A DNA stretch of 64,000 nucleotides, taken from NCBI GenBank assembly GCA_910574935.1, contig CAJTCU010000006.1:62001-126000 (forward strand). The letters are read 5' to 3'. Source of the stretch: Oscillospiraceae bacterium. Lineage in GTDB: Bacteria > Bacillota > Clostridia > Oscillospirales > Acutalibacteraceae. A model generated the notes under the pieces. It saw only the letters and a program-made list of their open reading frames with translations, was not told where the DNA came from and ran no database searches. A program made the translations under genes and the position numbers. Numbering within the stretch: the first letter of the stretch is position 1; the number at the start of each line of letters is the position of its first letter. Of the stretch, positions 1,741 to 52,208 are shown piece by piece.

Positions 1741-3507
1741 TTACCGCAGCCGCTCGTACCCCCGCTTAACTACTTCCGCCATTAAAGCCCGGCGCTTGGA
1801 CAAGAAGTCAAAGTAGTCCATATGTTCCCAATCTTCTGGTAGAGCATGGTCAGCATAAATACTGCCCTTCTCAGTAGGGTCAATTTTTGCAAGCTGGTCT
1901 TTCATATATTCGGCAGGGCTTGTATCCAAAACTTCGATATTATCGCTCCACTCAATGAAAGCAAAGTTGGCCATCTGGTTTCGATCTCTGTCATCAGCTA
2001 TTCCGATCCTGGCCAAATATGCTTTTGGAAACAGGTGGTGTTTCTCCAATGCTTTCTTCTTCCCATCGGCAGTGGGGTCAAACAATTCCCGGGTGTGGAG
2101 CGTTGAGAACAGCACTTTCGCATCCAACACATTTAAGGCAGCGCAGTAGCCAAACCAGGAGGGATTGCGCGGCGCGGAATTTGCAAGGCTGGTGGGCAAC
2201 GTGATGGCAAAATAGTCCCCTGTGAACACAGAGGCTATTTTCTTTTCCAACAGCGCAACAAAAGTTTCCTCTGTTTTCACATTGCGCAGATCTGCCAAAT
2301 CCGATTCCATATCCGTTTCCGGAGAGCCGGTGTAATACCCCGTAACAGCGGTCATAAAGAACCACTTTGCGATCAGCTTTCGCAGGGCTGACTCGCTCAT
2401 GCCATAGTAAAACTTTCCAAAAAGGTACATCACGTAAGAATAGACCAGGGCATTTTCTGAGGAAATCAGCGATTTGGATACGAACCCAGCCGCCTCCACG
2501 CACTTGAGAAAGTTTTTCCATATCTGCACATCCAGCACCTGTTCCAACACTTGTTTTAGCTTTTCAAAATTCTGAATACGAAGGCTCTCCGTGTAAACAC
2601 CATTTTCAAAGTCCCGGCCGCGCAGGAGCATATAGGCATAGTGCAGCCTCGCCCGCTGAAAGCCATAGCTCATAGCAACCCGCACAATGTGGGTGGGAGA
2701 GGGCTGGAACAGAAAGTTGTATGCTGTTCCTGGTTTCGGTGTCTTCGCGCTACGGCAGAAATCTACGATTTTCTGCCGGCCCTCAGGCCAATAGACAGAG
2801 ATAAGGGTAAGGATAAAATCATCCTCCCCCAGTTTCTCTCCGCCAGAATTGACCCGCACGAAAATGTCAGCGACGCTCTCTTCATCAGAGTTACCGCTGA
2901 TTTCCAAAGTAGGGATACTGAATCCTGTAAGAGAGAGCAAGTCCATAGTATTCTGTTGGATGCACTGCTTTTCGTCATCCGTCAGCGTGCCGTCGGTTTT
3001 CTCACGGGCATCTGAGATGGTTTGGACTTTTTCCGAAATGTAGGCAAAGCTTTTGGACTCATTGCGAAAGACCTCACTGATGTCGTAGATCCATTCCGCG
3101 CCGCGTTTTGTTGCATTATCTCCCACCGCAAAAGTACGGGTCAGCGGGTTGAAAGATATGATGATCTGCTTCTCGTTGAACTTTGCGTCTACAATCTTTT
3201 TGCCGTACATAACCGCATATAAAGAGGTCAGGCGCTGTTGACCGTCTATCACAAGGCTCTTGGGAGTCCCGAAAGGCTTGTTATCTATGCCTATCGTTTT
3301 ACTTTTCTCTGTATCATCCGCCGCATCCCAAATCATCAGATAGCCGATTGGGTAGCCTTTCAGCATAGAGTCCAGCAAGTCGCGGACCTTAGCGGCTCTC
3401 CAGACATAGCCCCGCTGAAGGTCAGGCAGGCCCAGTTTTCCGGTTTCCACCTCCATAATAAGCTCCCGCACCGTGCGGGGGACAGGTGTAAAAAGAGTTT
3501 TTGACAT
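1741..3507 (-). CDS. DUF262/DUF1524 protein, GmrSD-type restriction endonuclease
   Basis: A 588-aa protein. The start at 3507 (MSKTLFTPV) is chosen because AGGAGGG lies 6 nt upstream; an in-frame ATG ten codons earlier has no RBS. Residues ~10-230 are a DUF262 domain with LPDLQRGYVW (27-36) and the signature DGQQRLTSL (88-96). This ParB/sulfiredoxin-like module is linked to NTP use in GmrS. The C-terminal third is DUF1524, an HNH-like nuclease with EKHHLFPKAYL (H490/H491). One chain carrying both domains is the usual form of GmrSD/type IV restriction proteins that attack modified phage DNA, although some DUF262 proteins have other roles. It sits between the integrase and the tRNA-Ser attachment site, a typical place for a defence cargo gene, and its composition is AT-richer than the chromosome. 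Confidence 0.85.
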   Translation of the reverse strand: MSKTLFTPVPRTVRELIMEVETGKLGLPDLQRGYVWRAAKVRDLLDSMLKGYPIGYLMIWDAADDTEKSKTIGIDNKPFGTPKSLVIDGQQRLTSLYAVMYGKKIVDAKFNEKQIIISFNPLTRTFAVGDNATKRGAEWIYDISEVFRNESKSFAYISEKVQTISDAREKTDGTLTDDEKQCIQQNTMDLLSLTGFSIPTLEISGNSDEESVADIFVRVNSGGEKLGEDDFILTLISVYWPEGRQKIVDFCRSAKTPKPGTAYNFLFQPSPTHIVRVAMSYGFQRARLHYAYMLLRGRDFENGVYTESLRIQNFEKLKQVLEQVLDVQIWKNFLKCVEAAGFVSKSLISSENALVYSYVMYLFGKFYYGMSESALRKLIAKWFFMTAVTGYYTGSPETDMESDLADLRNVKTEETFVALLEKKIASVFTGDYFAITLPTSLANSAPRNPSWFGYCAALNVLDAKVLFSTLHTRELFDPTADGKKKALEKHHLFPKAYLARIGIADDRDRNQMANFAFIEWSDNIEVLDTSPAEYMKDQLAKIDPTEKGSIYADHALPEDWEHMDYFDFLSKRRALMAEVVKRGYERLR

Positions 3508-3548
3508 CAGTGACCCTCCTGAAAGACATTTTAACAATTATACGAAAA

Positions 3549-3580
3549 GGAGGCAAAACACCCAAAATGTTGTTGCCTCC
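3549..3580 (-). terminator. Terminator of tRNA-Ser
   Basis: An 8-bp perfect stem (GGAGGCAA at 3549-3556 with TTGCCTCC at 3573-3580), followed in the minus direction by TTTTCG. It begins 4 nt past the encoded CCA of tRNA-Ser and separates the tRNA from the start of the DUF262 gene. Confidence 0.75.
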
Positions 3581-3584
3581 CCAT

Positions 3585-3678
3585 TGGCGGAGATGAAGAG
3601 ATTTGAACTCTTGCGCCGGGGAACTCCCGACCTACCGCATTTCGAGTGCGGACCCTTCAACCACTTGGGTACATCTCC
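3585..3678 (-). tRNA. tRNA-Ser (anticodon CGA)
   Basis: A 94-nt class II tRNA including an encoded CCA. The acceptor stem is GGAGATG/CATCTCC with discriminator G73. The anticodon stem CCGCA/TGCGG encloses loop CTCGAAA, giving anticodon CGA (reads UCG). There is a long variable arm, as serine tRNAs require, and a T arm AAGAG-TTCAAAT-CTCTT. The mobile element lies on its 3' side (lower coordinates), the usual arrangement for integration into a tRNA gene. The gene is intact. Copies of its 5' half recur upstream in a 171-bp array. Confidence 0.96.
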
Positions 3679-4165
3679 GTATATAAAATTGTGTCGTTTA
3701 TTATCTTAGAATTCCCGTTAGAACTCGGCTAAATTTCTGTCCTCCCAACTCCAAAATTCCCAGTGTTTTCAAGGCTTTCCGGCCTCTCCCGTTCCACTCA
3801 CCCCACAGAATTTCGAGTGCGGACCCTTCAACCACTTGGGTACATCTCCGTGTATGAAATTGTGTTATTTGCTATCTTAGAATTCCCGTTAGAACTCAGC
3901 CAAATCTCTGCCCACCCAACTCCAAAACTCCCAGTGCTTTCAAGGCTTTCCGGCCTCTCCCGTTCCACTCACGCCACAGAATTTCGAGTGCGGACCCTTC
4001 AACCACTTGGGTACATCTCCGTGTATGAAATTGTGTTATTTGCTATCTTAGAATTCCTCTTAGAACCCAGCCAAATCTCTGCCCACCCAACTCCAAAACT
4101 CCCAGTGTTTTCAAGGCCTCCCGGCCTTCCGGGTTCCTCTCACCCCACAAAATTTCCCGTGCGGA
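3639..4165. repeat. 171-bp tandem repeat carrying the 5' half of tRNA-Ser
   Basis: The sequence from the anticodon loop to the 5' end of tRNA-Ser plus ~131 bp of upstream flank recurs with an exact 171-bp period. The tRNA-derived block starts at 3639 (real tRNA), 3810 and 3981, with a decayed fourth start at 4152. In each extra copy the tRNA homology ends at the 3' edge of the anticodon loop, leaving a 40-nt tRNA 5' half that cannot be functional. The break at the anticodon loop matches a known crossover position of tyrosine recombinases in tRNA genes. Units 1-3 are nearly identical, so duplication was recent or is kept alike. Either repeated integration/excision or simple tandem duplication could produce this. 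Confidence 0.9.
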
Positions 4166-4577
4166 CCCGTTATGACCCCTTCTCTAAGTGTAGTTTTGGG
4201 CACAAAACCACTATATTCTTTATCCGCCCAGCGCTTGTTTCCAAACAGAAGAAACGCCAGACTCTCACCTTGTTTAAGAAATCCGGGGGAACCGCGGCTC
4301 TGTCCATTTTTCATGAAGAAAAATTGCTGTCGCTTGGCTGGTCCAGCCCGGTCAATCCTTATATCCTTGACCTGGTTTTTCCACACAGAAAGAAACCGCT
4401 TCCAACACAAAGGGGCGGCGGTTTCTTATGTTTTCAAACCATGCCCTCATTCCTACCCGTGCCGGTTGAAATTTATTATATCTCCCCCTGGCAAAAATGT
4501 CAAGCCTCCGCCGCAAAACTTTACGGGTCCATCACCGGCCACATCCTTATATCTGCCCAAAGGGTTTGCAATGCCGT
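4166..4577. other. Non-coding stretch between repeat array and MFS gene
   Basis: About 410 bp in which I see no gene. It contains an inverted repeat at 4390-4399/4418-4427 (AAGAAACCGC with GCGGTTTCTT). In the minus direction this is followed by a T-rich tract and may end the MFS transcript. A weaker GTTTTG/CAAAAC hairpin lies near 4190. A long plus-strand reading frame crosses the array, this stretch and the MFS gene, but it has no domain and no RBS. Confidence 0.5.
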
Positions 4578-5777
4578 TCACTGGGGCGGCTGGGGCGCGC
4601 CGCCGACCCTGGTGCGGGAAAGCCTCACCAGGCAGAAGATCAGGACAATGGGAAACACCGCGGCGCTAAGCATTCCCAGGCGCAGGCCCGCCCATTCGCT
4701 GACCATTCCCGTTAGGGCCGGCCCTGTAGAGCAGCCGATGTCTCCGCACACTGCCAAGAGCCCAAACATGGCCGCGCCCCCTTTGGGATAGGTCTGGGCC
4801 GTAGAGCTAAGCACCCCTGGCCACATCAGGCTGATGGAGAACCCGCACAGTGCGCAGCTAAGCAGGGCCAGCAAGGGCACGGGAAACAACGCAGCCCCCA
4901 GATAGCACAGCACACAGAGAACCGCTGTGGCCATCAGCGCCTTATACAGGTTCAGTTTTGTGCCCCATACCCCATATATAGTACGGCCAATGCCCATGAA
5001 CACCGCAAACAGGCAGGGCCCCAGCAGATCGCCCAAAATTTTCGGCACCCCAAGGGCTTGCTCGGCAAAAAGAGAGCTCCACTGGCTCATAGCCAGCTCG
5101 CTGGCCCCGGCGCACAGCATAAGCACCATAGAAAGCGCGAATAACTTTGACCGCCACAGCTTAGCCAGGGGTGTTTTTTCCTCTTCCGGCACAGTGGAAC
5201 ACAGGGGGACCCGCAGAAAGGAAAAGGTGTTGTACAGGGGCAGCAAAGCCCACACTAAGGGCAAAACCCACCACAGCCCTTGGCCAATAGCCCGCACCGC
5301 CACAGTGGTAAGCAATACCACCCCCACCTGGCCCCAGCAGTAGAAGGAGTGGAGCAGGCTCATTTTGGCGTCCTTGGCCTCGCTGGGCAGGGAGTCAATG
5401 ATAGGGCTGACCGCCACCTCGATAATCCCTCCGCCCACGGCTGTAACCATGGTGGCAATCATCAGCCCCAAAAAAGGCCAGGGCAGCAGCCGGGGCAAAA
5501 GGCCCAGCATCACCAGGCCCGCCGTGCAGCAAACATGGGCGGTCACCGTGGCGGCCCGGTAGCCAGTGCGGTCAATTAGCTTCATGCACACCAGGTCCAC
5601 CACAATCTGCGTGACAAAATTGAAAAGAATCAGGGACGAGATCATGGCGTAGGAAATGCCGAAATCCCGCTGGAAAATCACAAAAAACAGGGGGCTTAGG
5701 TTATTAACAATGCCCTGCACTATGTACCCGCGGTAACAGGCCATGCGGGTGGGGCGGTAAGAAAGGGTTTGATCCAT
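4578..5777 (-). CDS. MFS transporter
   Basis: A 399-aa major facilitator superfamily protein with about twelve hydrophobic segments and a central cytoplasmic loop (~residues 200-220, PEEEKTPLAKLWRSK). The start at 5777 (MDQTLSYRP) has GGAGGAGC just upstream. A conserved-looking loop with D and R residues (KLIDRTGYRAA) follows the second helix, as in MFS motif A. Substrate cannot be read from sequence. The overall look is of the sugar/FucP-like MFS proteins common in gut Clostridia. It is divergent from the TIM-barrel isomerase at 6015, and the two share a 237-bp control region, so a sugar or polyol substrate handled by that enzyme is a reasonable guess. Confidence 0.85.
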   Translation of the reverse strand: MDQTLSYRPTRMACYRGYIVQGIVNNLSPLFFVIFQRDFGISYAMISSLILFNFVTQIVVDLVCMKLIDRTGYRAATVTAHVCCTAGLVMLGLLPRLLPWPFLGLMIATMVTAVGGGIIEVAVSPIIDSLPSEAKDAKMSLLHSFYCWGQVGVVLLTTVAVRAIGQGLWWVLPLVWALLPLYNTFSFLRVPLCSTVPEEEKTPLAKLWRSKLFALSMVLMLCAGASELAMSQWSSLFAEQALGVPKILGDLLGPCLFAVFMGIGRTIYGVWGTKLNLYKALMATAVLCVLCYLGAALFPVPLLALLSCALCGFSISLMWPGVLSSTAQTYPKGGAAMFGLLAVCGDIGCSTGPALTGMVSEWAGLRLGMLSAAVFPIVLIFCLVRLSRTRVGGAPQPPQ

Positions 5778-18110: not shown

Positions 18111-18466
18111 GCTGGTTTTTTGGCATGCTCGTGGGCTTTTCCACTGGGGTGATCTCCGGTTTTGGGGTGGGGGGCGGCACCCTGCTGGTCCTCTGGCTAA
18201 CCCTGGTGGAACACATGGACCAGCTGCGGGCCGGGGGCGTGAACCTGGTGTATTTTGCCGCCTGTGGACTTCCGGCCCTTTTGGGACACATAAAAAACGG
18301 CCTGGTAGAGGGCCAGGCCGTTCTATGGTGTGTGCTTTTGGGCATACCCGCCTGCTTGGCAGGTTCCCTAGCTGCGGCAGGGATGGATGTGGGGCTGCTG
18401 CGGCGGGGCTTTGGGGTCTTGCTTTTGGTTGTGGGGGTGAAGGAGCTGTTCTATTCTGACCGCTGA
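18107..18466 (+). CDS. Half-size TauE/SafE permease, second subunit
   Basis: A 119-aa partner of the previous gene, beginning in its stop codon. It has the second-half version of the signature, GVISGFGVGGGTLLVLWL, and four hydrophobic segments. A charged loop (GHIKNGLVEGQ) matches the position of the loop between helices in DUF81 proteins. The two half-proteins are similar but not near-identical, as expected for the two halves of an internally duplicated permease. The gene converges with the DUF308 gene at 18502. Confidence 0.85.
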   Translation: MSWFFGMLVGFSTGVISGFGVGGGTLLVLWLTLVEHMDQLRAGGVNLVYFAACGLPALLGHIKNGLVEGQAVLWCVLLGIPACLAGSLAAAGMDVGLLRRGFGVLLLVVGVKELFYSDR

Positions 18467-18501
18467 CTAGGGCTTGTTTGAAGCATCGAAAACGGCGTTT
18501 T

Positions 18502-19035
18502 TTATTTTGCTTTATAGATTCGGTCCGCTGCCACTGTATTGGCCAGGGTGTACACGCCGTCGAATACAAAACTCACGCCAATAAATACCACCAGGTGGCT
18601 CATCAGCGAGAAGGGCCGCAGAACCATTACCAGCCCCAGCAGGGAAAGAACCAGTGCCGCCGTCAGCGAAATCCACCATTTCTCAAAGCCCAGGGCCTTC
18701 ATGTCCAGGGCTTTTTTGATGGAGGAAACCCCGTCCACCAGAATATAGACCCCCAGCGTCACCGGAATGACCGAGGCCAAAAACTGCGGACTCACCATCA
18801 GGAACACCCCCAACAGGGCCAGGATCATCCCTAAAAACAGGTCAAACCGGCTCTGGTAGCCGCCTCCCGCCTTCCAGTAGGAGTACAGCCGCACCGCCCC
18901 ATAGCACAGGGTCACCCCGCCAATTACAATGCTGGCCCACTGAAGGGCCGAGCCGGGAAAAAGGATGAGCACCACCCCCAGGGCCGTGTACAAAACAGAT
19001 GTAAGCACCAAACTGTTTCGAATACTTTTCAACAT
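18502..19035 (-). CDS. HdeD family (DUF308) membrane protein
   Basis: A 177-aa protein with six hydrophobic segments (TSVLYTALGVVLILFP, ASIVIGGVTLCYGAVRLY, LGMILALLGVFLMVSP and so on), matching the HdeD/DUF308 family first linked to acid resistance in E. coli. The start at 19035 (MLKSIRNSL) uses a GGAG that sits on the stop codon of the GNAT gene; an in-frame ATG at 19059 would overlap that gene. It is the last gene of the minus-strand operon preceded by the T-box leader. Its function here is unknown. Confidence 0.8.
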   Translation of the reverse strand: MLKSIRNSLVLTSVLYTALGVVLILFPGSALQWASIVIGGVTLCYGAVRLYSYWKAGGGYQSRFDLFLGMILALLGVFLMVSPQFLASVIPVTLGVYILVDGVSSIKKALDMKALGFEKWWISLTAALVLSLLGLVMVLRPFSLMSHLVVFIGVSFVFDGVYTLANTVAADRIYKAK

Positions 19036-19048
19036 CGCGGTCACTCTC

Positions 19049-19606
19049 CTAACATCCAATCTTTCGAATCATAATATATTCGTTGCACAGGCTGCCGTCC
19101 TTTAGACGGAAAGCGTCGGGCCGCACGCCCACAATGCGAAAGCCCATTTTTTCATACAGAGCCCGCGCCCGAAAGTTTCCCTCTAAAAATTCCAGCTCCA
19201 GCTGGGTGAGGCCTTGCCAGCTTTCCGCAATGCGGATGAGCTCCTGGAACATCGCTGTACCAATGCCCTGACCCCAGAATTCCTTTAAGAGGGCAATGCC
19301 CACATTGGCCCGGTGGCGTATCTTGGCCATATTGCTTCTGCTCACCTCGCAGTTTCCCGCGATTCTGCCCTCCACCTGGCAGACCAGCGTGGCCGCGTTC
19401 TCTGCGGCGTTCATGTTCTCTATCCACTTGGCCTCATTCTCCGGGGTGTATTTTTTGCAGTCCTCCGGACCGCGCAAGATGAATTCCGACTCTTCAGCGG
19501 ACTTTACCAGATAGTCCAGCAGGCCGGGCACATCCTCCTGCCGGGGGCTGCGCAGTAAGGCTTTCCGGCCGTCCTTCAGCAGAAACGGCGTCTCGTTTGT
19601 AAGCAT
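19049..19606 (-). CDS. GNAT family N-acetyltransferase
   Basis: A 185-aa GNAT, with an acetyl-CoA-binding region at WGQGIGTAMFQELIRIAE (the Q/RxxGxG/A loop) and a C-terminal LEFLEGNFRARALYEKMGF, the usual beta6/alpha4 signature. The start shares one base with the stop of the upstream acyl-CoA synthetase gene (TAATG), so translation is likely coupled. The substrate is unknown. Tight coupling to a CoA-forming enzyme suggests that both act in one process, perhaps acylation with a product of the synthetase or a regulatory acetylation of it; this is inference. Confidence 0.88.
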   Translation of the reverse strand: MLTNETPFLLKDGRKALLRSPRQEDVPGLLDYLVKSAEESEFILRGPEDCKKYTPENEAKWIENMNAAENAATLVCQVEGRIAGNCEVSRSNMAKIRHRANVGIALLKEFWGQGIGTAMFQELIRIAESWQGLTQLELEFLEGNFRARALYEKMGFRIVGVRPDAFRLKDGSLCNEYIMIRKIGC

Positions 19607-21918
19607 TATTTTTCCTCCTCCCGCAGCTGCACCCGCCTGATCTTGCCGCTGATGGTCTTGGGCAGTTCCTCCCGGAACTCCACGATGCGGGGGTACTTAT
19701 AGGGAGCTGTGTGCTTCTTTACATAGGTCTGTATCTCTTTCTTCAGCTGGTCGGTGCCCTCTGTGCCCCGGGTCAGCACAATGGTGGCCTTGACCACCTG
19801 GCCCCGCACCGGGTCCGGCACGGCGGTAACGGCGCATTCCAGCACATAGGGCAGCTCCATGATCACGCTTTCGATCTCGAAGGGCCCAATGCGGTAACCA
19901 GAGGACTTGATCACATCGTCCGTGCGGCCCACGTACCAGAAGAAGCCGTCCTCGTCCCGCCAGGCCGTATCGCCAGTGTGGTACATGCCGTCATACCAGG
20001 ACTCCCTGGTTTGCTTCTCATCCTGGTAGTAGCCCATAAACAGGCCGCAGGGCGCGCCCTTATCGGTACGTATCACAATCTCTCCTGTCTCGCCCACCGG
20101 GGCGCTGCTGCCGTCGGGCAGCACAATATCCACATCATACAGGGGGCTGGGCACACCCATAGAGCCCGTTTTGGGGATGGCGCCCACCGGGTTATAAATC
20201 ACACAGGTGGTCTCTGTTTGACCAAAGCCCTCCATCAGCATAAGGCCCGTGGCCCGCTTCCACTGCTGGTAGACCTCTGGGTTCAGGGCCTCGCCGGCCG
20301 TGGTGGAGTACTCGATTCCAGAAAGGTCATATTTCGAGAGGTCCTCCTTGATAAAGAACCGGTACATGGTGGGCGGCGCACAGAAGGTGGTGATATGGTA
20401 CTTAGCGAACATAGGCAGAATGTCGTGGGCGTCGAACTTGTCAAAATCATAGGTAAACAGCGCCGCCTCGCACATCCACTGGCCGTAGTACTTACCCCAC
20501 ATAGCCTTGCCCCAGCCCGTGTCAGAAATGGTAAAGTGCAGGCCGTCTGGGTTCACATTGTGCCAGTACCGGGCGGTGATATAGTGGCCAAGGGCATACT
20601 TATAGCTGTGCATAGCAATTTTCGGATAACCTGTGGTACCGGAGGTGAAGTACATTAGCATCAGGTCGCTGCCACAGGGAGAGTCTGGCTTTCGGTCATA
20701 CACATCCGGGAAAAGGGCCATCTCCTTGTCAAAGTCATGCCAGTCGGTCAGCCCCCGCTCGGGCCGGTTCTCTCCAACCAGAATCTTCACCTGCACCCCA
20801 GGGCAGTTTTGGGCTGCCCGGTGGGCCTCGTCGGCGGTTTGGTCGTCGCTGGTACACAAAATAGCCTTTACCCCCGCGGCTTTAAAGCGGTAGTCAAAGT
20901 CGTGCTCCATCAAAAGATGGGTGGCCGGGATAATCACCGCGCCCATTTTGTGCAGGGCCGTGATCACAAACCAGAACTGGTAGTGGCGCTTGAGCACCAC
21001 CAGCACCTTGTCTCCCCGCTGAATGCCCAGGCTCTCCAGGTAGTTGGCGGTTTTGTTGGACATGCGGCGGATGTCGCCAAAGGTAAAGCGGCGCTCTACC
21101 TTGTGCTTATCCACATGGAGCATCGCCAGGCGTTCTGGCTCCCGGCGGGCAATTTCGTCCACAATATCGAAGCCAAAGTTAAAGTTCTCTTCGTTTTTAA
21201 ACTGAATCTCTTTTAAGATGCCGTTCTCGTCCAGAGTGGTCTCGATAAAGGGATCGGCCACGCTCTCCCGGTTCTGCCGGGCCAGCTTGCGCTGGATGAG
21301 GGTCTGAAACCGGTCTGGCTGGTGGGGCAGGTCCTCCGTACCCTTCATCACCATGGCGTACAACTGGCAGTCGGCTCCGCCGGTGGCGATCATCCCGTGG
21401 GGGGTGCCGGAGTTGTAGTAGATGGAGTCGCCCTCGTTGAGGGTTTCGATGTGGCTGCCGATCTGCATCTTCATGGAGCCCTTTACCACAATATCGAACT
21501 CCTGGCCCGTGTGGGCGGCCAGCTTAATGGCCACGTGCTGCTCGGCCTCGGAATAGGGCATGGTAACAAAAAACGGCTCCGCGGTCTTATCTTTAAACAG
21601 GGGGGCCAGGTTCAAATATTTGAAACCGTGGCGGCGGGCAATGGGCAGGCCGTCCCCGTGGCGCACAATGGTGTAGCTGGACAACGTGGGGCTGACGCCG
21701 CGGATCAGGTCCGTGGGGTCCACGCCAAAGCGCTTGGCGCACTTGTAGATAAAGGTAAAGCTAAAGTCCTGCTCGCCCAGTTCGCAATGCTGGTATTCCT
21801 CTTTTGTAACGCCCGTGCACTTGGCCATCTCCTCTTCCGAAAGGCCGGTAATCTCCCGCATAGTGCGGATGCGCTGGGCCACCTCGGCCAGCTGGGTTTT
21901 TAGGTCTGTTTTTTCCAT
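19606..21918 (-). CDS. XRE-cupin-AMP-binding fusion: acyl-CoA synthetase with built-in regulator domains
   Basis: A 770-aa three-part protein. Residues ~10-70 are an XRE-type HTH (RIRTMREITGLSEEEMAKCT, then TFIYKCAKRFGVDPTDL). Residues ~115-192 are a cupin_2 barrel (HTGQEFDIVVKGSMKMQIG, GDSIYYNSGTPHGM). Residues ~235-770 are an ANL-superfamily acyl-CoA synthetase with YFTSGTTGYPK (423-433), GFGQTE, YHTGD and the catalytic K759 in ISGKIRR. The enzyme part is closest in look to medium/branched-chain acyl-CoA synthetases (ACSM/MACS; GWGKAMWGKYYGQW). XRE plus cupin is normally a stand-alone repressor such as PuuR, so the protein may both form acyl-CoA and bind DNA. It starts after AAGGGGG, 46 bp downstream of the unknown gene. 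An imperfect palindrome around GTTAAC at the junction is a candidate self-operator. Confidence 0.88.
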   Translation of the reverse strand: MEKTDLKTQLAEVAQRIRTMREITGLSEEEMAKCTGVTKEEYQHCELGEQDFSFTFIYKCAKRFGVDPTDLIRGVSPTLSSYTIVRHGDGLPIARRHGFKYLNLAPLFKDKTAEPFFVTMPYSEAEQHVAIKLAAHTGQEFDIVVKGSMKMQIGSHIETLNEGDSIYYNSGTPHGMIATGGADCQLYAMVMKGTEDLPHQPDRFQTLIQRKLARQNRESVADPFIETTLDENGILKEIQFKNEENFNFGFDIVDEIARREPERLAMLHVDKHKVERRFTFGDIRRMSNKTANYLESLGIQRGDKVLVVLKRHYQFWFVITALHKMGAVIIPATHLLMEHDFDYRFKAAGVKAILCTSDDQTADEAHRAAQNCPGVQVKILVGENRPERGLTDWHDFDKEMALFPDVYDRKPDSPCGSDLMLMYFTSGTTGYPKIAMHSYKYALGHYITARYWHNVNPDGLHFTISDTGWGKAMWGKYYGQWMCEAALFTYDFDKFDAHDILPMFAKYHITTFCAPPTMYRFFIKEDLSKYDLSGIEYSTTAGEALNPEVYQQWKRATGLMLMEGFGQTETTCVIYNPVGAIPKTGSMGVPSPLYDVDIVLPDGSSAPVGETGEIVIRTDKGAPCGLFMGYYQDEKQTRESWYDGMYHTGDTAWRDEDGFFWYVGRTDDVIKSSGYRIGPFEIESVIMELPYVLECAVTAVPDPVRGQVVKATIVLTRGTEGTDQLKKEIQTYVKKHTAPYKYPRIVEFREELPKTISGKIRRVQLREEEK

Positions 21919-21964
21919 TGGGTCGTCCCCCTTTGATAAGAGTAGTATATCGAAATTTTACCAG

Positions 21965-22771
21965 TTAACACGTTATGTCAAAACAAATTCTGCCGTCTTT
22001 TTCTCGGATATAGGGCTTGCGCTCTTTGATATAGGCGTACTGGGGGTAGCGGGCGGCACTGTTCCGCAGCAGATACATCAGCGTGGGGTGTACCGCCACG
22101 TCATGGTTGCTGTGCATCACCATCCCCTTGTGCTCCAGCCACTTCAGCATTTCCGGCAGGTGCGGGTCCGTATAAGGCTTTGCCAGAGAAAAGGACAACT
22201 CGCTAAGGCAGAGCCAGTAGTACCAGAGGCAAAACCAGGGGCGCTTTTTCTCTCCATAGTGCTGGTTGAAGTTGTCCAGCCTACTCTGTATCCAGGCCTC
22301 CTCTTCCGGGGCGGCCGCCGCCAGGAACCGCAGGACCACCAGCGAAGCGTCGAAGCACTCCCCCACCCCGTCGTCCTGATAGCCAAAGCAGGTGGTGCGC
22401 AGCCGCGCCAGGGTCTGCTGCCGCATAGCCTCCACCTCCGGCAGCTCTGGCCCCAGCAGGCACAGCAGCCGCAGGATCTCCAGCTCATATAGGTTGCTGG
22501 CAAACAGCTGGGTCTTTGGGGTCTGGTTCATCAGGGTCTTGTACTTTTCACCCTGGTTGTAGGCTGGAATAAAGCATTCTGGGTACATCCTGCGGCCTTC
22601 CCGGTCTCGGTTCCCCGGGCAGCGGACCCCACGGTAAAACCGTTCCGCCTCCTCTGGGGTACTTCGCGCGGCCAGCAGCTGGCCAAGGATCTGGTCTTTC
22701 TGTTTTTCGGTCAGCGTTCCATCCCGCAATAGGAAGTGGTTGGTTTTTAACGTCAGTTCGTACGCTTTCAT
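21965..22771 (-). CDS. Unknown 268-aa protein directly behind a T-box leader
   Basis: I do not recognise this protein. The start at 22771 (MKAYELTLK) follows AAGGAGG and is the first good start after the T-box terminator. The chain is mostly alpha-helical, rich in Trp, Tyr and Cys, with no signal peptide or TM helix. Helical stretches such as LYELEILRLLCLLGPE, CFDASLVVLRFLAAAAPEEE and RPWFCLWYYWLCLSELSFSLA suggest an alpha/alpha-toroid like prenyltransferase or terpene-cyclase folds, but without their catalytic DxDD or zinc motifs. Possible ligand residues are C51, C66, C128, C139 and D140. It is the first gene of a likely operon with the acyl-CoA synthetase fusion, GNAT and DUF308 genes, and should share their control by the leader. 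Confidence 0.75.
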   Translation of the reverse strand: MKAYELTLKTNHFLLRDGTLTEKQKDQILGQLLAARSTPEEAERFYRGVRCPGNRDREGRRMYPECFIPAYNQGEKYKTLMNQTPKTQLFASNLYELEILRLLCLLGPELPEVEAMRQQTLARLRTTCFGYQDDGVGECFDASLVVLRFLAAAAPEEEAWIQSRLDNFNQHYGEKKRPWFCLWYYWLCLSELSFSLAKPYTDPHLPEMLKWLEHKGMVMHSNHDVAVHPTLMYLLRNSAARYPQYAYIKERKPYIREKDGRICFDITC

Positions 22772-22795
22772 GGACTTTCCTCCTTCGCGACCCAT

Positions 22796-23150
22796 AAAAA
22801 AACCGTCTCACAGGGATTTCTCCCCATGAGACGGAATTGCTCCGCGGTACCACTCATCTTGCAAAAGCAAAACGCCCCTATGGCGCTAGCCTCTGCCTCC
22901 TCTGCGGACTCTAACAAGCCCTTTGCCCTAACGCGGCTTTACGGAGGACATCTACTTCCCAAAAAACTCCACACAGCTCTTGTTAAGCTCCCGGTTGCTG
23001 GCGCGTCTCGGGTTTCGGGTCCCCGGCTCAGAAGGGATGGACATTTTCGGCCGTACCCCATTGGCTTGCAGCAACCGCCAACTCTCTGAAAGGGTCGCAA
23101 CCATGTCTTCTTCGTCATTGCCTTTACTTATACAATTACATCTTACTTAA
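22796..23150 (-). promoter_or_regulatory. T-box riboswitch leader, probably tRNA-Ile responsive
   Basis: Reading the minus strand: a stem I with K-turn bases (AATGACGAAG with CTTCTGAGCC), an AGAGAG motif, and an apical hairpin TTGGC-GGTTGCTGCAA-GCCAA. Then comes a long middle region and the T-box GAGTGGTACCGCGG (22842-22855). Last is a terminator stem (CCGTCTCA/TGAGACGG, 22803-22834) with seven Ts. The triplet AUC (23036-23038) sits just above the K-turn helix in CAUCCCUUC, matching the ileS leader (CAUCCCUCC) in this window. The T-box UGGU pairs with ACCA tRNA ends and so disfavours serine (its tRNA here has discriminator G). Uncharged tRNA-Ile would thus allow read-through into the 21965-22771 gene. 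The T-box identity is solid; the specifier is a structural inference. Confidence 0.88.
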
Positions 23151-23155
23151 AGAGT

Positions 23156-23183
23156 ATTATACACCCAAGTCCCAAAAAGTCAA
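23156..23183 (-). promoter_or_regulatory. Promoter of the T-box operon
   Basis: Minus strand TTGACT (23178-23183), 16-bp spacer, consensus TATAAT (23156-23161). Transcription would begin near 23149, just before the T-box stem I. Between this promoter and the kbl stop (23281) I see no gene and no clear kbl terminator. Confidence 0.8.
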
Positions 23184-23280
23184 TAGTTTCCAGAAAATTT
23201 TTCCTTATACAGCGTTCTGTTTCCTCTATAAGAATGTCCTGCTGGCAGAGCGCAATATCTGTTTTTAAGCAAGCGCCAGG

Positions 23281-24468
23281 TTAAATGCCCATTTCTTCTT
23301 TCACTGCCTTAAAGCATTCCACCGCGAAATCCAGGTCCTCCCGGCTGTGCCCCGCAGAAACCTGGGTGCGAATACGCGCCCGGCCCTTTGGCACCACGGG
23401 ATAGCTGAAGCCCACCACATACACACCTTTTTCCAGCATTCGAACCGCAAACTCTGCCGCCACTTTGGCGTCGTACAGCATTACTGCCACAATGGGGTGG
23501 CTGCCCTCCAGCACGTCAAAGCCCAAACGGCTTAGCTTCTCCCGGAAGTAGGCAGTATTCTCGTGCACCCGGTCCCGCAGCTCCGTAGAGGCTGTCAGCA
23601 GCTCCAGGGTCTTTAGACTGGCGGCGCATACAGCAGGAGCCAAGGTATTAGAGAACAGATACGGACGGCTGCGCTGGCGCAGAAGCTCTACAATTTCCTG
23701 GCGGGCCGCGGTATAGCCGCCGCTGGCCCCGCCCAGGGCCTTGCCAAAGGTGCCTGTAATAATATCCACCCGGCCCTGTACCCCGCAGAACTCCGGCGTG
23801 CCCCGGCCTGTGTCCCCCATAAAGCCCACGGCGTGGCTGTCGTCTACCATCACTAGAGCGTCAAACTCGTCTGCCAGGTCGCAGATCCCTTTTAGATTGG
23901 CAATGTAGCCATCCATAGAGAACACGCCGTCTGTGGCAATGAGCTTCACCTGGCAGCCCGCCTCTTCGGCAGCCTCCAGCTGGGCCCGCAGGTCCTCCAT
24001 ATTGTTGTTTTTATAGCGAAAGCGCTTGGCTTTGCACAGACGCACCCCATCAATAATAGAGGCATGGTTCAGCTCGTCAGAGATAATGGCGTCCTCGGGC
24101 CCCAGCAGGGTCTCAAATAGGCCTCCGTTGGCGTCAAAGCAGGAGGAGTACAGAATCACGTCATCTGTGCCCAAGAACTCCGAGAGCTTTTGCTCCAGCT
24201 GTTTGTGAACGCTTTGGGTGCCGCAGATAAACCGCACCGACGAGAGACCAAAGCCCCATTGATCGTAGCTCTCTTTGGCCGCGGCAATCAACTCCGGATT
24301 ATTGGCAAGGCCCAGGTAGTTGTTGGCGCACATATTCACCACCCGGCTGGCCTCTGTGGTGTCAATCCGGGACCGCTGGGGGGTGGTGATGACCCGTTCC
24401 CCCTTCCAGGTGCCTGCCTCACGGATCGCTTCTAGCTCATTTTTATACTTCTCTAAAGCTTTTTTCAT
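23281..24468 (-). CDS. kbl: 2-amino-3-ketobutyrate coenzyme A ligase (glycine C-acetyltransferase)
   Basis: A 395-aa fold-type I PLP enzyme of the alpha-oxoamine synthase family. The start at 24468 (MKKALEKYK) follows GGGAGG. Motifs include [13 protein letters not shown], the [15 protein letters not shown] segment (PLP contacts) and the PLP lysine in [15 protein letters not shown]. It cleaves 2-amino-3-ketobutyrate with CoA to glycine and acetyl-CoA, the second step of threonine degradation. The first enzyme, threonine dehydrogenase, is encoded immediately upstream, which supports Kbl over the related BioF or HemA. A terminator-like hairpin between the two genes suggests partly independent transcription. 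Confidence 0.95.
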
Positions 24469-24675
24469 AAAATGACCTCCCAAATAAAAACACAAGCCTT
24501 GCCAAATACATACCAGACTATACGCCGCAGCGCAAAGTTCAATAAACCGTTTCGACCGCCTTTCAAGACCGCAAGACGTGAAAGCGGGGGCCGCAAGCGG
24601 CAGACAAGCCCCAGCCCTTCACAAATCTTTCCCGTAAAGAAGAAACCGCTTGTAAAGAGCGGGTCCCGCCTGCGG

Positions 24676-24762: not shown

Positions 24763-25800
24763 TCACTCAGTCCAGTCCAAAATCACCTTCCCAGACTTTC
24801 CGCTATTCATGGCGGCAAATCCCTGCTCAAACTGGGTGTAGTGGAACCGGTGGGTGATTACCGGCGTCAGATCCAGGCCGCCCTGCACCATGTAGCTCAT
24901 CTGGTGCCAGTTATCCATCTTCCGACCGTAAATCCCCTGTAAAGTAAGCCCTTTGCCAATAATACCGTTCATGTTCATAGGCACGGGTTCGTTGGAAATT
25001 CCCAAAAGGCTAATCTTGCCGCCGTTTCGCATCACAGAGATCATCTGGGTCAAGGCCGCGCCGTTTCCGCTCATCTCCAGACCAATGTCAAAGCCCTCTA
25101 CCAGGCCCTGCTTGCTCATCACACTGGGCAGGTCCTCGGTCTTTACGTTCACCGCCGCGTCCGCGCCCATCTTCCGGGCCAGATCCAGCCGGTACTCGTT
25201 TACATCGGTAATCACCACCCGGCGGGCCCCGGCGTACTTGCAAACCCCGGCGGCAATGATTCCAATGGGCCCCGCGCCGGTAATCAGTACATCCTCTCCC
25301 ACCAAGTCCCACATCAGGGCTGTATGGGTGGCATTGCCAAAAGCGTCGAAGAACGCTACCACCTCTTCGGGCAGGCTCCCGTCAATGATAATTACATTAC
25401 TCTGGGGAATGCATACATACTGGGCGAAAGCGCCGTCCCGGTCCACGCCCACCCCCTGGGTGTCTTTGCACCACTGGATGTTGCCGGTATGGCAGTTCCG
25501 GCAGCGGCCGCAGGTAATATGTCCCTCGCCGCTAACCCGCTGGCCTACGTGCAGGCCCTCTACCCCCGCGCCCAGCTGGGCCACCTCGCCCACATACTCG
25601 TGGCCGATGACCATGGGGGGCCGGATGTGCTCCCGGGCCCAAGGGTCCCAGTTGTAAATGTGGACATCCGTGCCGCAGATAGCGGTTTTGTGCACTTTAA
25701 TCAGGACCTGCCCTGGCCCTGGCAGGGGCACCGGTACCTGGCGAAGCTCCAGTCCTGGGCCCGCAGCGGGCTTTACCAGGGCGTCCATCATTTGAGACAT
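24763..25800 (-). CDS. tdh: L-threonine 3-dehydrogenase
   Basis: A 345-aa zinc-dependent medium-chain dehydrogenase that oxidises threonine to 2-amino-3-ketobutyrate with NAD. The catalytic zinc site shows C42 (ICGTDVHIYNWD) and H67/E68 (GHEYVGEV). The structural zinc loop has C97, C100, C103 and C111. The Rossmann motif is GAGPIGIIAAGV. The sequence CGTDVHIYNWDPWA is highly characteristic of Tdh. AGGAGGAGG precedes the start. Together with kbl it forms the threonine-to-glycine pathway, giving acetyl-CoA and glycine. Confidence 0.96.
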   Translation of the reverse strand: MSQMMDALVKPAAGPGLELRQVPVPLPGPGQVLIKVHKTAICGTDVHIYNWDPWAREHIRPPMVIGHEYVGEVAQLGAGVEGLHVGQRVSGEGHITCGRCRNCHTGNIQWCKDTQGVGVDRDGAFAQYVCIPQSNVIIIDGSLPEEVVAFFDAFGNATHTALMWDLVGEDVLITGAGPIGIIAAGVCKYAGARRVVITDVNEYRLDLARKMGADAAVNVKTEDLPSVMSKQGLVEGFDIGLEMSGNGAALTQMISVMRNGGKISLLGISNEPVPMNMNGIIGKGLTLQGIYGRKMDNWHQMSYMVQGGLDLTPVITHRFHYTQFEQGFAAMNSGKSGKVILDWTE

Positions 25801-51950: not shown

Positions 51951-52208
51951 AAATAAAGCCTCCGCCCCAAAACAGGGCGAAGGCATACTTCGCTTTACCA
52001 CCCATTTTGACTGTCGGTGTACCAACAGCTTCCCGATAACGGCGGGGGCCGGCCTGGCTTAATAAAGGCTTGCGGACAACGGGGCCTTGTTCAGCTGGCG
52101 ACTTCGGAGGGATGCGGAAAAGGCGCAGGTGCCGGCTTGCACCAGCCGCCGGCTCTCTGGGACCATAGGCCTGGCCCGCGTGTCTCCATCATAGTCTTTA
52201 CGGTGTAT
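51951..52208 (-). promoter_or_regulatory. T-box riboswitch leader of ileS
   Basis: On the minus strand: AGAGAG, an apical hairpin GCCGGC-GGCTGGTGCAA-GCCGGC, then CGCATCCCTCCGAAG with the specifier AUC (52111-52113) just above the K-turn helix. Next comes a T-box GGGTGGTAAAGCG (51991-52003), and a terminator (51951-51984, GCCTTCGCCC/GGGGCGGAGGC then TTTATTTAT). AUC and UGGU both fit tRNA-Ile. The T-box departs from the consensus GGTACCGCG by reading GGTAAAGCG. Uncharged tRNA-Ile would permit read-through into ileS. Confidence 0.88.

Follow-up and report, generated by a model that had tools for sequence, protein, structure and literature searches.

What does an isoleucine-type T-box leader control when the genes behind it include one for an acyl-coenzyme A (CoA) synthetase? 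The question is raised by a stretch of 64,000 nucleotides (nt) from an Oscillospiraceae bacterium of the family Acutalibacteraceae (assembly GCA_910574935.1, contig CAJTCU010000006.1, positions 62,001 to 126,000), here called the window, where such a leader precedes an operon containing a fusion of an XRE-type helix-turn-helix (HTH) domain, a cupin domain and an acyl-CoA synthetase (Table 1). T-boxes turn genes on when the cognate amino acid is scarce. The original prediction, made from the sequence of the window, was that the operon salvages branched short-chain acids for isoleucine, and it is supported by the specifier codon, by the recurrence of the leader-ligase pairing, by the neighbours of the ligase in related genomes and by its kinship with the archaeal enzyme Macs_Ma. 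Our reading, to which we assign a probability of about 0.84, is a T-box-controlled synthesis by reductive carboxylation, with isoleucine made from 2-methylbutyrate and valine from isobutyrate. When isoleucine is scarce, the leader would sense uncharged tRNA-Ile and allow read-through into the gene of the AMP-forming synthetase, which would activate 2-methylbutyrate to 2-methylbutyryl-CoA. A ferredoxin-dependent 2-oxoisovalerate:ferredoxin oxidoreductase (VOR) would then carboxylate the latter reductively to 3-methyl-2-oxopentanoate, from which transamination would give isoleucine. Many relatives have a further copy of the ligase with a valine T-box, located directly upstream of the VOR operon; this copy would handle isobutyrate on the way to valine.

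Table 1. Features of the leader-ligase locus and of the comparison leader, in window coordinates
Feature	Position	Strand	Remarks
Promoter of the leader, TTGACT-16-TATAAT	23156..23183	-	11/12 consensus matches
T-box leader, Stem I to antiterminator	22824..23127	-	RF00230, 74.8 bits, E 2.4e-14 (64-kb window), model positions 1-219
Specifier codon AUC (Ile)	23036..23038	-	covariance alignment; flanking GAAG/CUUC helix
T-box sequence TGGTACCGCG	22843..22852	-	UGGU fits discriminator A
Intrinsic terminator	22803..22834	-	14 pairs, then T7
P0002, first gene after the leader	21965..22795	-	probable start ATG 22771, behind AAGGAGG
P0001, XRE HTH-cupin-acyl-CoA synthetase fusion, 770 aa	19606..21918	-	Pfam HTH_19, Cupin_2, AMP-binding, AMP-binding_C
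Codon of Gly470 in P0001	20509..20511	-	separates Ile-type (G) from Val-type (A) relatives
GNAT acetyltransferase gene	19049..19606	-	Pfam; adjoins the ligase only in closest relatives
HdeD/DUF308-like membrane protein gene	18502..19035	-	ATG 19035; adjoins the ligase only in closest relatives
Second T-box leader, before ileS (comparison)	51970..52201	-	RF00230, 68 bits, E 1.4e-12; IleS frame downstream

The leader in the window is a genuine T-box with an isoleucine specifier, as confirmed by a significant match over the full length of the RF00230 model. AUC falls into the specifier columns of the covariance alignment, and the helix below it is also present in the Stem I fold. The predicted fit of the T-box UGGU to discriminator A was borne out as well; the identical ten bases, TGGTACCGCG, occur in 148 leaders (147 without the row of the window's own P0002). 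Together with its promoter and terminator the leader is complete, as originally described: the terminator, with a folding energy of -25.4 kcal/mol (z -7.1 versus shuffled sequences), competes with an antiterminator that contains the T-box sequence (-9.5 kcal/mol, z -0.5). An equivalent AUC had been proposed for the leader of ileS, and by eye it lies in the same place (52113-52111), though the Rfam alignment breaks that codon with a gap. Eight T-boxes in total match RF00230 at E <= 0.01 in the window's genome, and, as named from the downstream translations, they precede operons holding tyrS, leuA, leuS, the ligase studied here, ileS, alaS, a trpB-like gene and thrS. As with the ligase of the window, intervening genes separate some of these T-boxes from the expected target (loci L001 and L002): tyrS is preceded by a GNAT and a HAD-like gene, and leuA by a methyltransferase-like gene, these names also being read from translations.

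The open reading frames (ORFs) of the operon and their spacing were found as described, with a 46-nt gap between P0002 and the ligase, a 1-nt overlap of the ligase and GNAT genes and a 13-nt gap before the HdeD-like gene. In a pattern scan of positions 18400-23300, where shuffled sequences average 2.7 sites, the promoter of the leader was the sole promoter-like site, and the 46-nt gap contained neither a promoter-like nor a terminator-like site; thus no separate promoter was seen for the ligase. This bears on the idea that the T-box mainly controls P0002 and that the ligase is a passenger with a promoter of its own. The order of genes in the window, with P0002 coming first after the leader, agrees with that idea, but the gap lacks the promoter it requires, and the closest relatives (L009, L010, L090) and most others have no gene of such size between T-box and ligase (the median leader-to-ligase distance is 111 nt), so we consider it scarcely credible.

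The partners of the ligase in the window are poorly conserved. P0002 has no match in Pfam or NCBIfam, its AlphaFold model computed without an alignment is unusable (predicted local distance difference test score 47.7), and only two of the 150 family genomes contain a match, namely its own and that of a member of the same genus, where the match lies on the contig of the ligase about 117 kb away from it. Among the loci compared, GNAT matches stand beside the ligase in L009, L010, L090 and, weakly, L231, and HdeD-like matches in L010 and L090 besides the copy of the window; many loci carry only 1.5 kb of flank, where more distant copies could escape detection. Of the operon composition proposed originally, the T-box, the XRE-cupin part and the ligase are conserved, while P0002, the GNAT and the HdeD-like gene are not conserved partners and are recent additions. 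The whole operon was accordingly dropped as a candidate system, since these three genes occur beside the ligase in the closest relatives only or nowhere.

The pairing of T-box and ligase, on the other hand, recurs widely, as a search of relatives was expected to reveal. Ligase matches were found in 91 of 150 genomes of the family sample (E <= 1e-100) and in 38 of 398 genomes of the phylum sample (E <= 1e-150), and a scan of genome contigs gave at least 592 relatives, the best 80 of which were retained. Together with 77 fetched stretches, these loci supplied 160 distinct ORFs matching the XRE-cupin start of P0001 (the fusion set; some rows are incomplete, two are separate XRE-cupin genes, and a genome may occur in both collections) and 70 unfused ligases of at least 40% identity, with three further ORFs set aside. 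A canonical T-box, that is, TGGTACCGCG no more than 330 nt upstream of the fusion ORF, is present in 147 of the 160 fusion relatives. Their specifiers were called by script as ATC in 104 leaders, GTA in 36 and GTC in two, and by eye as ATC in three more (L174, L045, L074); two leaders are incomplete. Hence all 145 readable codons specify isoleucine (107) or valine (38). The script needs a helix around the codon, a requirement of which the Rfam alignments are independent, and in such alignments of seven leaders from four loci GUA occupies the specifier columns of all four valine leaders. A loose promoter pattern is located just upstream in 130 of the 132 leaders with enough sequence, a frequency for which the chance level was not estimated.

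Thirteen rows of the fusion set have no canonical T-box within 330 nt, and none of them was added to the 147. Four have degenerate T-boxes (L013, L056, L105 and L112; for instance, GTGGTAACGTG), with ATC read by eye in three of them and the sequence of L056 beginning too late for reading; L206 has a canonical T-box at -427, and no T-box was seen upstream of the fusion ligase in L036 and L088. The remainder are incomplete upstream (L055, L082), represent separate XRE-cupin genes (L124, L156) or are the window's own ligase (L089, L235).

Upstream of the unfused ligases, T-boxes occur as well: one of 70 has a T-box within 330 nt and eight within 2.2 kb, at least 1 kb of upstream sequence being available for 66. 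Seven of these eight T-boxes precede a separate XRE-cupin gene ahead of the ligase (L127, L128, L131, L132, L133, L134, L161), the eighth stands directly before the ligase (L219), and the specifier is ATC in all eight, twice as read by eye. Therefore the conserved unit consists of an isoleucine T-box, an XRE-cupin protein and the ligase, encoded as a fusion or by two genes. The seven loci with separate genes perhaps retain the state before the fusion.

Two observations on the sequences next to the leaders may be added. In many rumen loci (for instance, L026, L038 and L058) the element TTTGAATATCAC or a similar one recurs directly ahead of the leader. Further, L026 (1662 and 1750-5617) contains another T-box, its specifier read by eye as CUC (Leu), just ahead of the ligase with the isoleucine T-box. 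It precedes a LeuA-like gene and the gene of an 831-aa protein in which an AMP-binding ligase is fused to a xylose-isomerase-like TIM barrel; similar arrangements occur in L040, L044 and L060.

As for the enzyme, the best PDB match of P0001 is 3etc (E 5.7e-188), that is, Macs_Ma of Methanosarcina acetivorans, the nearest solved enzyme over the ligase part, in agreement with the archaeal MACS-type kinship invoked originally. Trp259 of Macs_Ma corresponds to Trp474 of P0001 in the alignment (numbering anchored on YHTGD at 431-435), and the two proteins have GFGQTE in common. We take this motif to hold the glycine known from acetyl-CoA synthetase, P0001 having been aligned to Macs_Ma only. The likeness covers the ligase part with its GWGKxxW motif, whereas the N-terminal XRE-cupin part and the position behind a T-box set the enzyme of the window apart. 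According to the accessible part of its description, Macs_Ma prefers 2-methylbutyrate (PMC10455477). The best NCBIfam match of P0001 is MbcS (NF047394), and the Staphylococcus aureus enzyme of that name, as far as the available text goes, activates 2-methylbutyrate and isobutyrate, and isovalerate poorly (PMC10026030). Judged by these relatives, the ligase of the window probably activates a branched short-chain acid.

The match to MbcS also invites another explanation, that the ligase supplies branched acyl-CoA primers for membrane fatty acids, since this is the role given to MbcS in S. aureus in the same portion of that report (PMC10026030). However, P0001 scores 417.6 bits, far below the equivalog cut-off of 850 bits, and a supplier of primers would be expected neither to have specifiers for isoleucine and valine only, nor to neighbour VOR and IlvE-like genes, nor to be linked to missing canonical biosynthetic genes. 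We regard primer supply as very improbable.

The gene order in relatives connects the ligase with the next step of the proposed route. Tandem fusion ligases are arranged with the isoleucine copy first and the valine copy second in 24 of 25 loci, the first leader being unreadable in the other one. All 20 evaluable Val-type ligases (of 29) have VorB in the same orientation no more than 1.7 kb downstream, where evaluable means that at least 2.5 kb of downstream sequence is available or VorB was seen, a definition slightly biased toward positives. The corresponding figures for evaluable Ile-type ligases (64 of 106) are six within 1.7 kb and 21 within 4.6 kb; they are seldom near VorB because the valine copy often intervenes. 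The downstream operon encodes a MinD-like ATPase, a 2[4Fe-4S] ferredoxin (read from the translation), VorB, VorA and VorC, followed in some loci, including L084 and L080, by an IlvE-like Aminotran_4 protein. The identity of VOR in the relatives is indicated by NF005507 (541 bits versus a cut-off of 399), and in the window's genome VorB scores 553 bits against the same cut-off, with VorA and VorC relatives adjoining. Thus the 2-oxoacid:ferredoxin oxidoreductase genes that had been anticipated nearby are directly downstream of the ligase in many relatives and elsewhere in the genome of the window.

The content of pathway genes was compared in 80 genomes of the family sample with a completeness of 90% or more. 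They comprise all 36 fusion genomes, 27 of the 28 genomes in which every ligase is unfused or split (without G120) and 17 of the 51 genomes without a ligase match (from 19 listed, G044 and G046 left out). A source of 2-oxobutyrate, cimA or ilvA, is present in 10 of 36 fusion, 27 of 27 unfused-only and 12 of 17 no-ligase genomes, where citramalate synthase was counted from matches above the curated cut-off and weaker, probably LeuA-like matches were dropped. In the same order of classes, ilvC occurs in 14, 22 and 11 genomes, ilvD in 15, 21 and 11, and VorB above the cut-off in 34, 22 and three. Within the unfused-only class, ilvC or ilvD is lacking in all four genomes with a T-box, and a canonical step is lacking in two of the 23 without one. 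Of the fusion genomes, 16 of 22 without ilvC have a Val-type copy, against three of 14 with ilvC (Fisher p 0.005, to be taken as a guide). Two of the degenerate T-boxes mentioned above, those of L105 and L112, lie in genomes that have the canonical genes (G143 and G012, respectively).

The synthetic direction of the route follows from the logic of the T-box together with the enrichment of the fusion where entry enzymes are missing. The opposite direction could also be imagined, in which branched amino acids would be degraded by way of acyl-CoA to acids, to serve energy or redox balance; VOR-type enzymes can in principle run both ways, and fermentation of amino acids is known from gut anaerobes. 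A T-box, though, activates genes under amino acid scarcity, the ligase is AMP-forming, and a catabolic role would not account for the enrichment just mentioned, so that catabolism seems no more credible to us than the passenger role of the ligase.

Alternatively, the ligase might activate propionate, from which a 2-oxoacid synthase would give 2-oxobutyrate for the canonical IlvBCD route. An isoleucine T-box is compatible with this, cimA and ilvA matches are both absent from four fusion genomes that do have ilvC, and both ilvC and ilvD are present in the genome of the window. Macs_Ma, in the accessible part of its description, does adenylate propionate, yet many adenylated acids are not taken through its thioester step (PMC10455477). 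Moreover, 22 of 36 fusion genomes have no ilvC and could make no isoleucine in this way, the adjoining oxidoreductase belongs to the 2-oxoisovalerate family, and the Val-type paralogue is left unexplained. As a general account the propionate route is improbable, if slightly less so than primer supply; it may operate in species with ilvC and ilvD, including that of the window.

Additional evidence for a route by reductive carboxylation comes from position 470, which varies with the specifier. When 134 labelled fusion ligases were aligned with that of the window, all 29 Val-type proteins had Ala at this position, and Gly was present in 104 of 105 Ile-type proteins and in the window's. The position lies within GW(G/A)KxxW, four residues ahead of Trp474, the counterpart of the known acyl-pocket residue Trp259 in Macs_Ma, and Macs_Ma itself has Gly here. 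It is chemically plausible that a substrate with one carbon fewer would be bound in a slightly smaller pocket. Nine ligases with an isoleucine T-box outside the main fusion clade (eight unfused ones and L166, which for this reason was excluded from the residue count) also have Gly at 470, and the unfused ligases overall have G, A, M or L. Further positions, mostly in the XRE-cupin part, separate the two classes as well. In the XRE-cupin tree the valine type forms one clade with support 99, and the 217-row ligase tree requires four label changes, versus 23-29 in 200 shuffles. In the tree, the fusion ligase L166, which has an isoleucine T-box, groups with unfused ligases, and its genome (G128) gave no ilvC, cimA or ilvA matches; L166 is possibly an independent fusion.

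Several observations count against the proposed route. In the window, P0002 is inserted between the leader and the ligase, and the 74.8 bits of the leader are below the Rfam gathering score of 93, at which level a scan misses it; of the seven homologous leaders aligned, three are above this score and four below. Stem I (z 0.1) and the antiterminator (z -0.5) fold no better than shuffled sequence, and for this reason the leader call rests on the covariance match and on the relatives. The window's genome possesses ilvA, ilvB/N-like, ilvC and ilvD genes, its VOR genes are on another contig and are preceded by none of the eight T-box matches, and nine other fusion genomes also carry ilvC, ilvD and an entry enzyme. 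Given these canonical genes, the branched-acid route is probably auxiliary in the window's species, which has a single, Ile-type copy of the ligase. In comparison with the no-ligase genomes, ilvC and ilvD are not significantly rarer in fusion genomes (p 0.14 and 0.15, respectively), and the genomes counted are kin, so that all Fisher p values overstate independence. No Val copy was seen in six of the 22 fusion genomes without ilvC, and downstream of the Val copy in L209, which is not evaluable, the VorA and VorC relatives are on the opposite strand. The ligase L117 has an isoleucine specifier, yet Ala at position 470. Finally, the ligase-domain trees give no single valine clade, and the one set against the XRE-cupin tree contains five label changes, at least three of them forced.

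The last point does not fit a single duplication as the origin of the valine type, a scenario that suits the XRE-cupin part. The ligase domains of tandem copies may instead recombine, with Ala and Gly kept by selection, an interpretation that we infer from the two trees and do not consider proven. L117, for its part, comes from a 1.1-Mb genome (G022) with a single ligase match and no ilvC match, and is perhaps a broad enzyme.

Taking these data together, we lean, by a narrow preference, toward a more specific form of reductive-carboxylation synthesis, in which the T-box codon would label the substrate of each ligase paralogue (2-methylbutyrate for isoleucine, isobutyrate for valine) and the Gly-to-Ala change at the pocket would set the preference under selection despite domain recombination. 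With VOR and an aminotransferase, the paralogues would then form a regulated gene set for the branched-acid growth factors of rumen and gut Oscillospiraceae-like bacteria, and the synthetase could in addition be a DNA-binding regulator of its own operon.

The components of the proposed system have known counterparts. With other RF00230 T-boxes the leaders share Stem I with the specifier, the AGAGA bulge, TGGTACCGCG, the terminator and antiterminator, and a codon naming the amino acid; what sets them apart is the controlled gene, whose product here would act on a short branched acid and activate it. When the main texts of the TBDB paper and of the 2008 survey of T-boxes were searched for the words acyl-CoA, AMP-binding, CoA ligase and fatty acid, none of them turned up; the TBDB tables may list such leaders uncommented. 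In a literature search covering few subscription papers, we found no report of a T-box that precedes the gene of an acyl-CoA synthetase. The chemistry is old: in the portions available to us, descriptions of branched volatile acids as growth factors of rumen bacteria and as precursors of their amino acids go back to the 1960s, with synthesis of isoleucine and valine from 2-methylbutyrate and isobutyrate in rumen anaerobes reported in 1962-1971 (cited in PMC7356843), and amino acids from branched acids in such anaerobes are treated in a further source, also available in part (PMC10658910). The same chemistry is proposed here, and what differs is the proposal of genes, gene order and tRNA-dependent control. 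Similarly, in the genome paper of Methanobrevibacter ruminantium reductive carboxylation to isoleucine was inferred from an incomplete usual pathway, again starting from 2-methylbutyrate, but that organism is archaeal and the accessible text does not mention T-boxes (PMC2812497). MbcS resembles the predicted enzyme in acting on 2-methylbutyrate and isobutyrate, and differs in its role in fatty-acid priming and in sequence, the window's ligase scoring far below the MbcS equivalog cut-off. Both T-boxes and the branched-acid route are thus known, and new, within the literature searched, is the combination of the T-box with specifier-matched paralogues of a fused synthetase.

The pairing is shared by many related gut and rumen bacteria, often with a valine-sensing copy, and suggests that these amino acids are made by a regulated route from acids released by other microbes. 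If this is true, the codon of the leader would predict the substrate of the enzyme, and acid cross-feeding in gut communities could be read from genomes. Bacteria scored as isoleucine or valine auxotrophs for missing ilv genes may then be prototrophs on the acids of their neighbours.

Two other features of the window are of minor note. The leader is immediately preceded, on its own strand, by genes for a class I/II aminotransferase and a zinc alcohol dehydrogenase-like protein (23281-24495 and 24763-25800), and we presume that the order of this pair resembles kbl-tdh of threonine breakdown. The sole tRNA gene found in the window, at 3585-3678, encodes a tRNA-Ser with the anticodon CGA.

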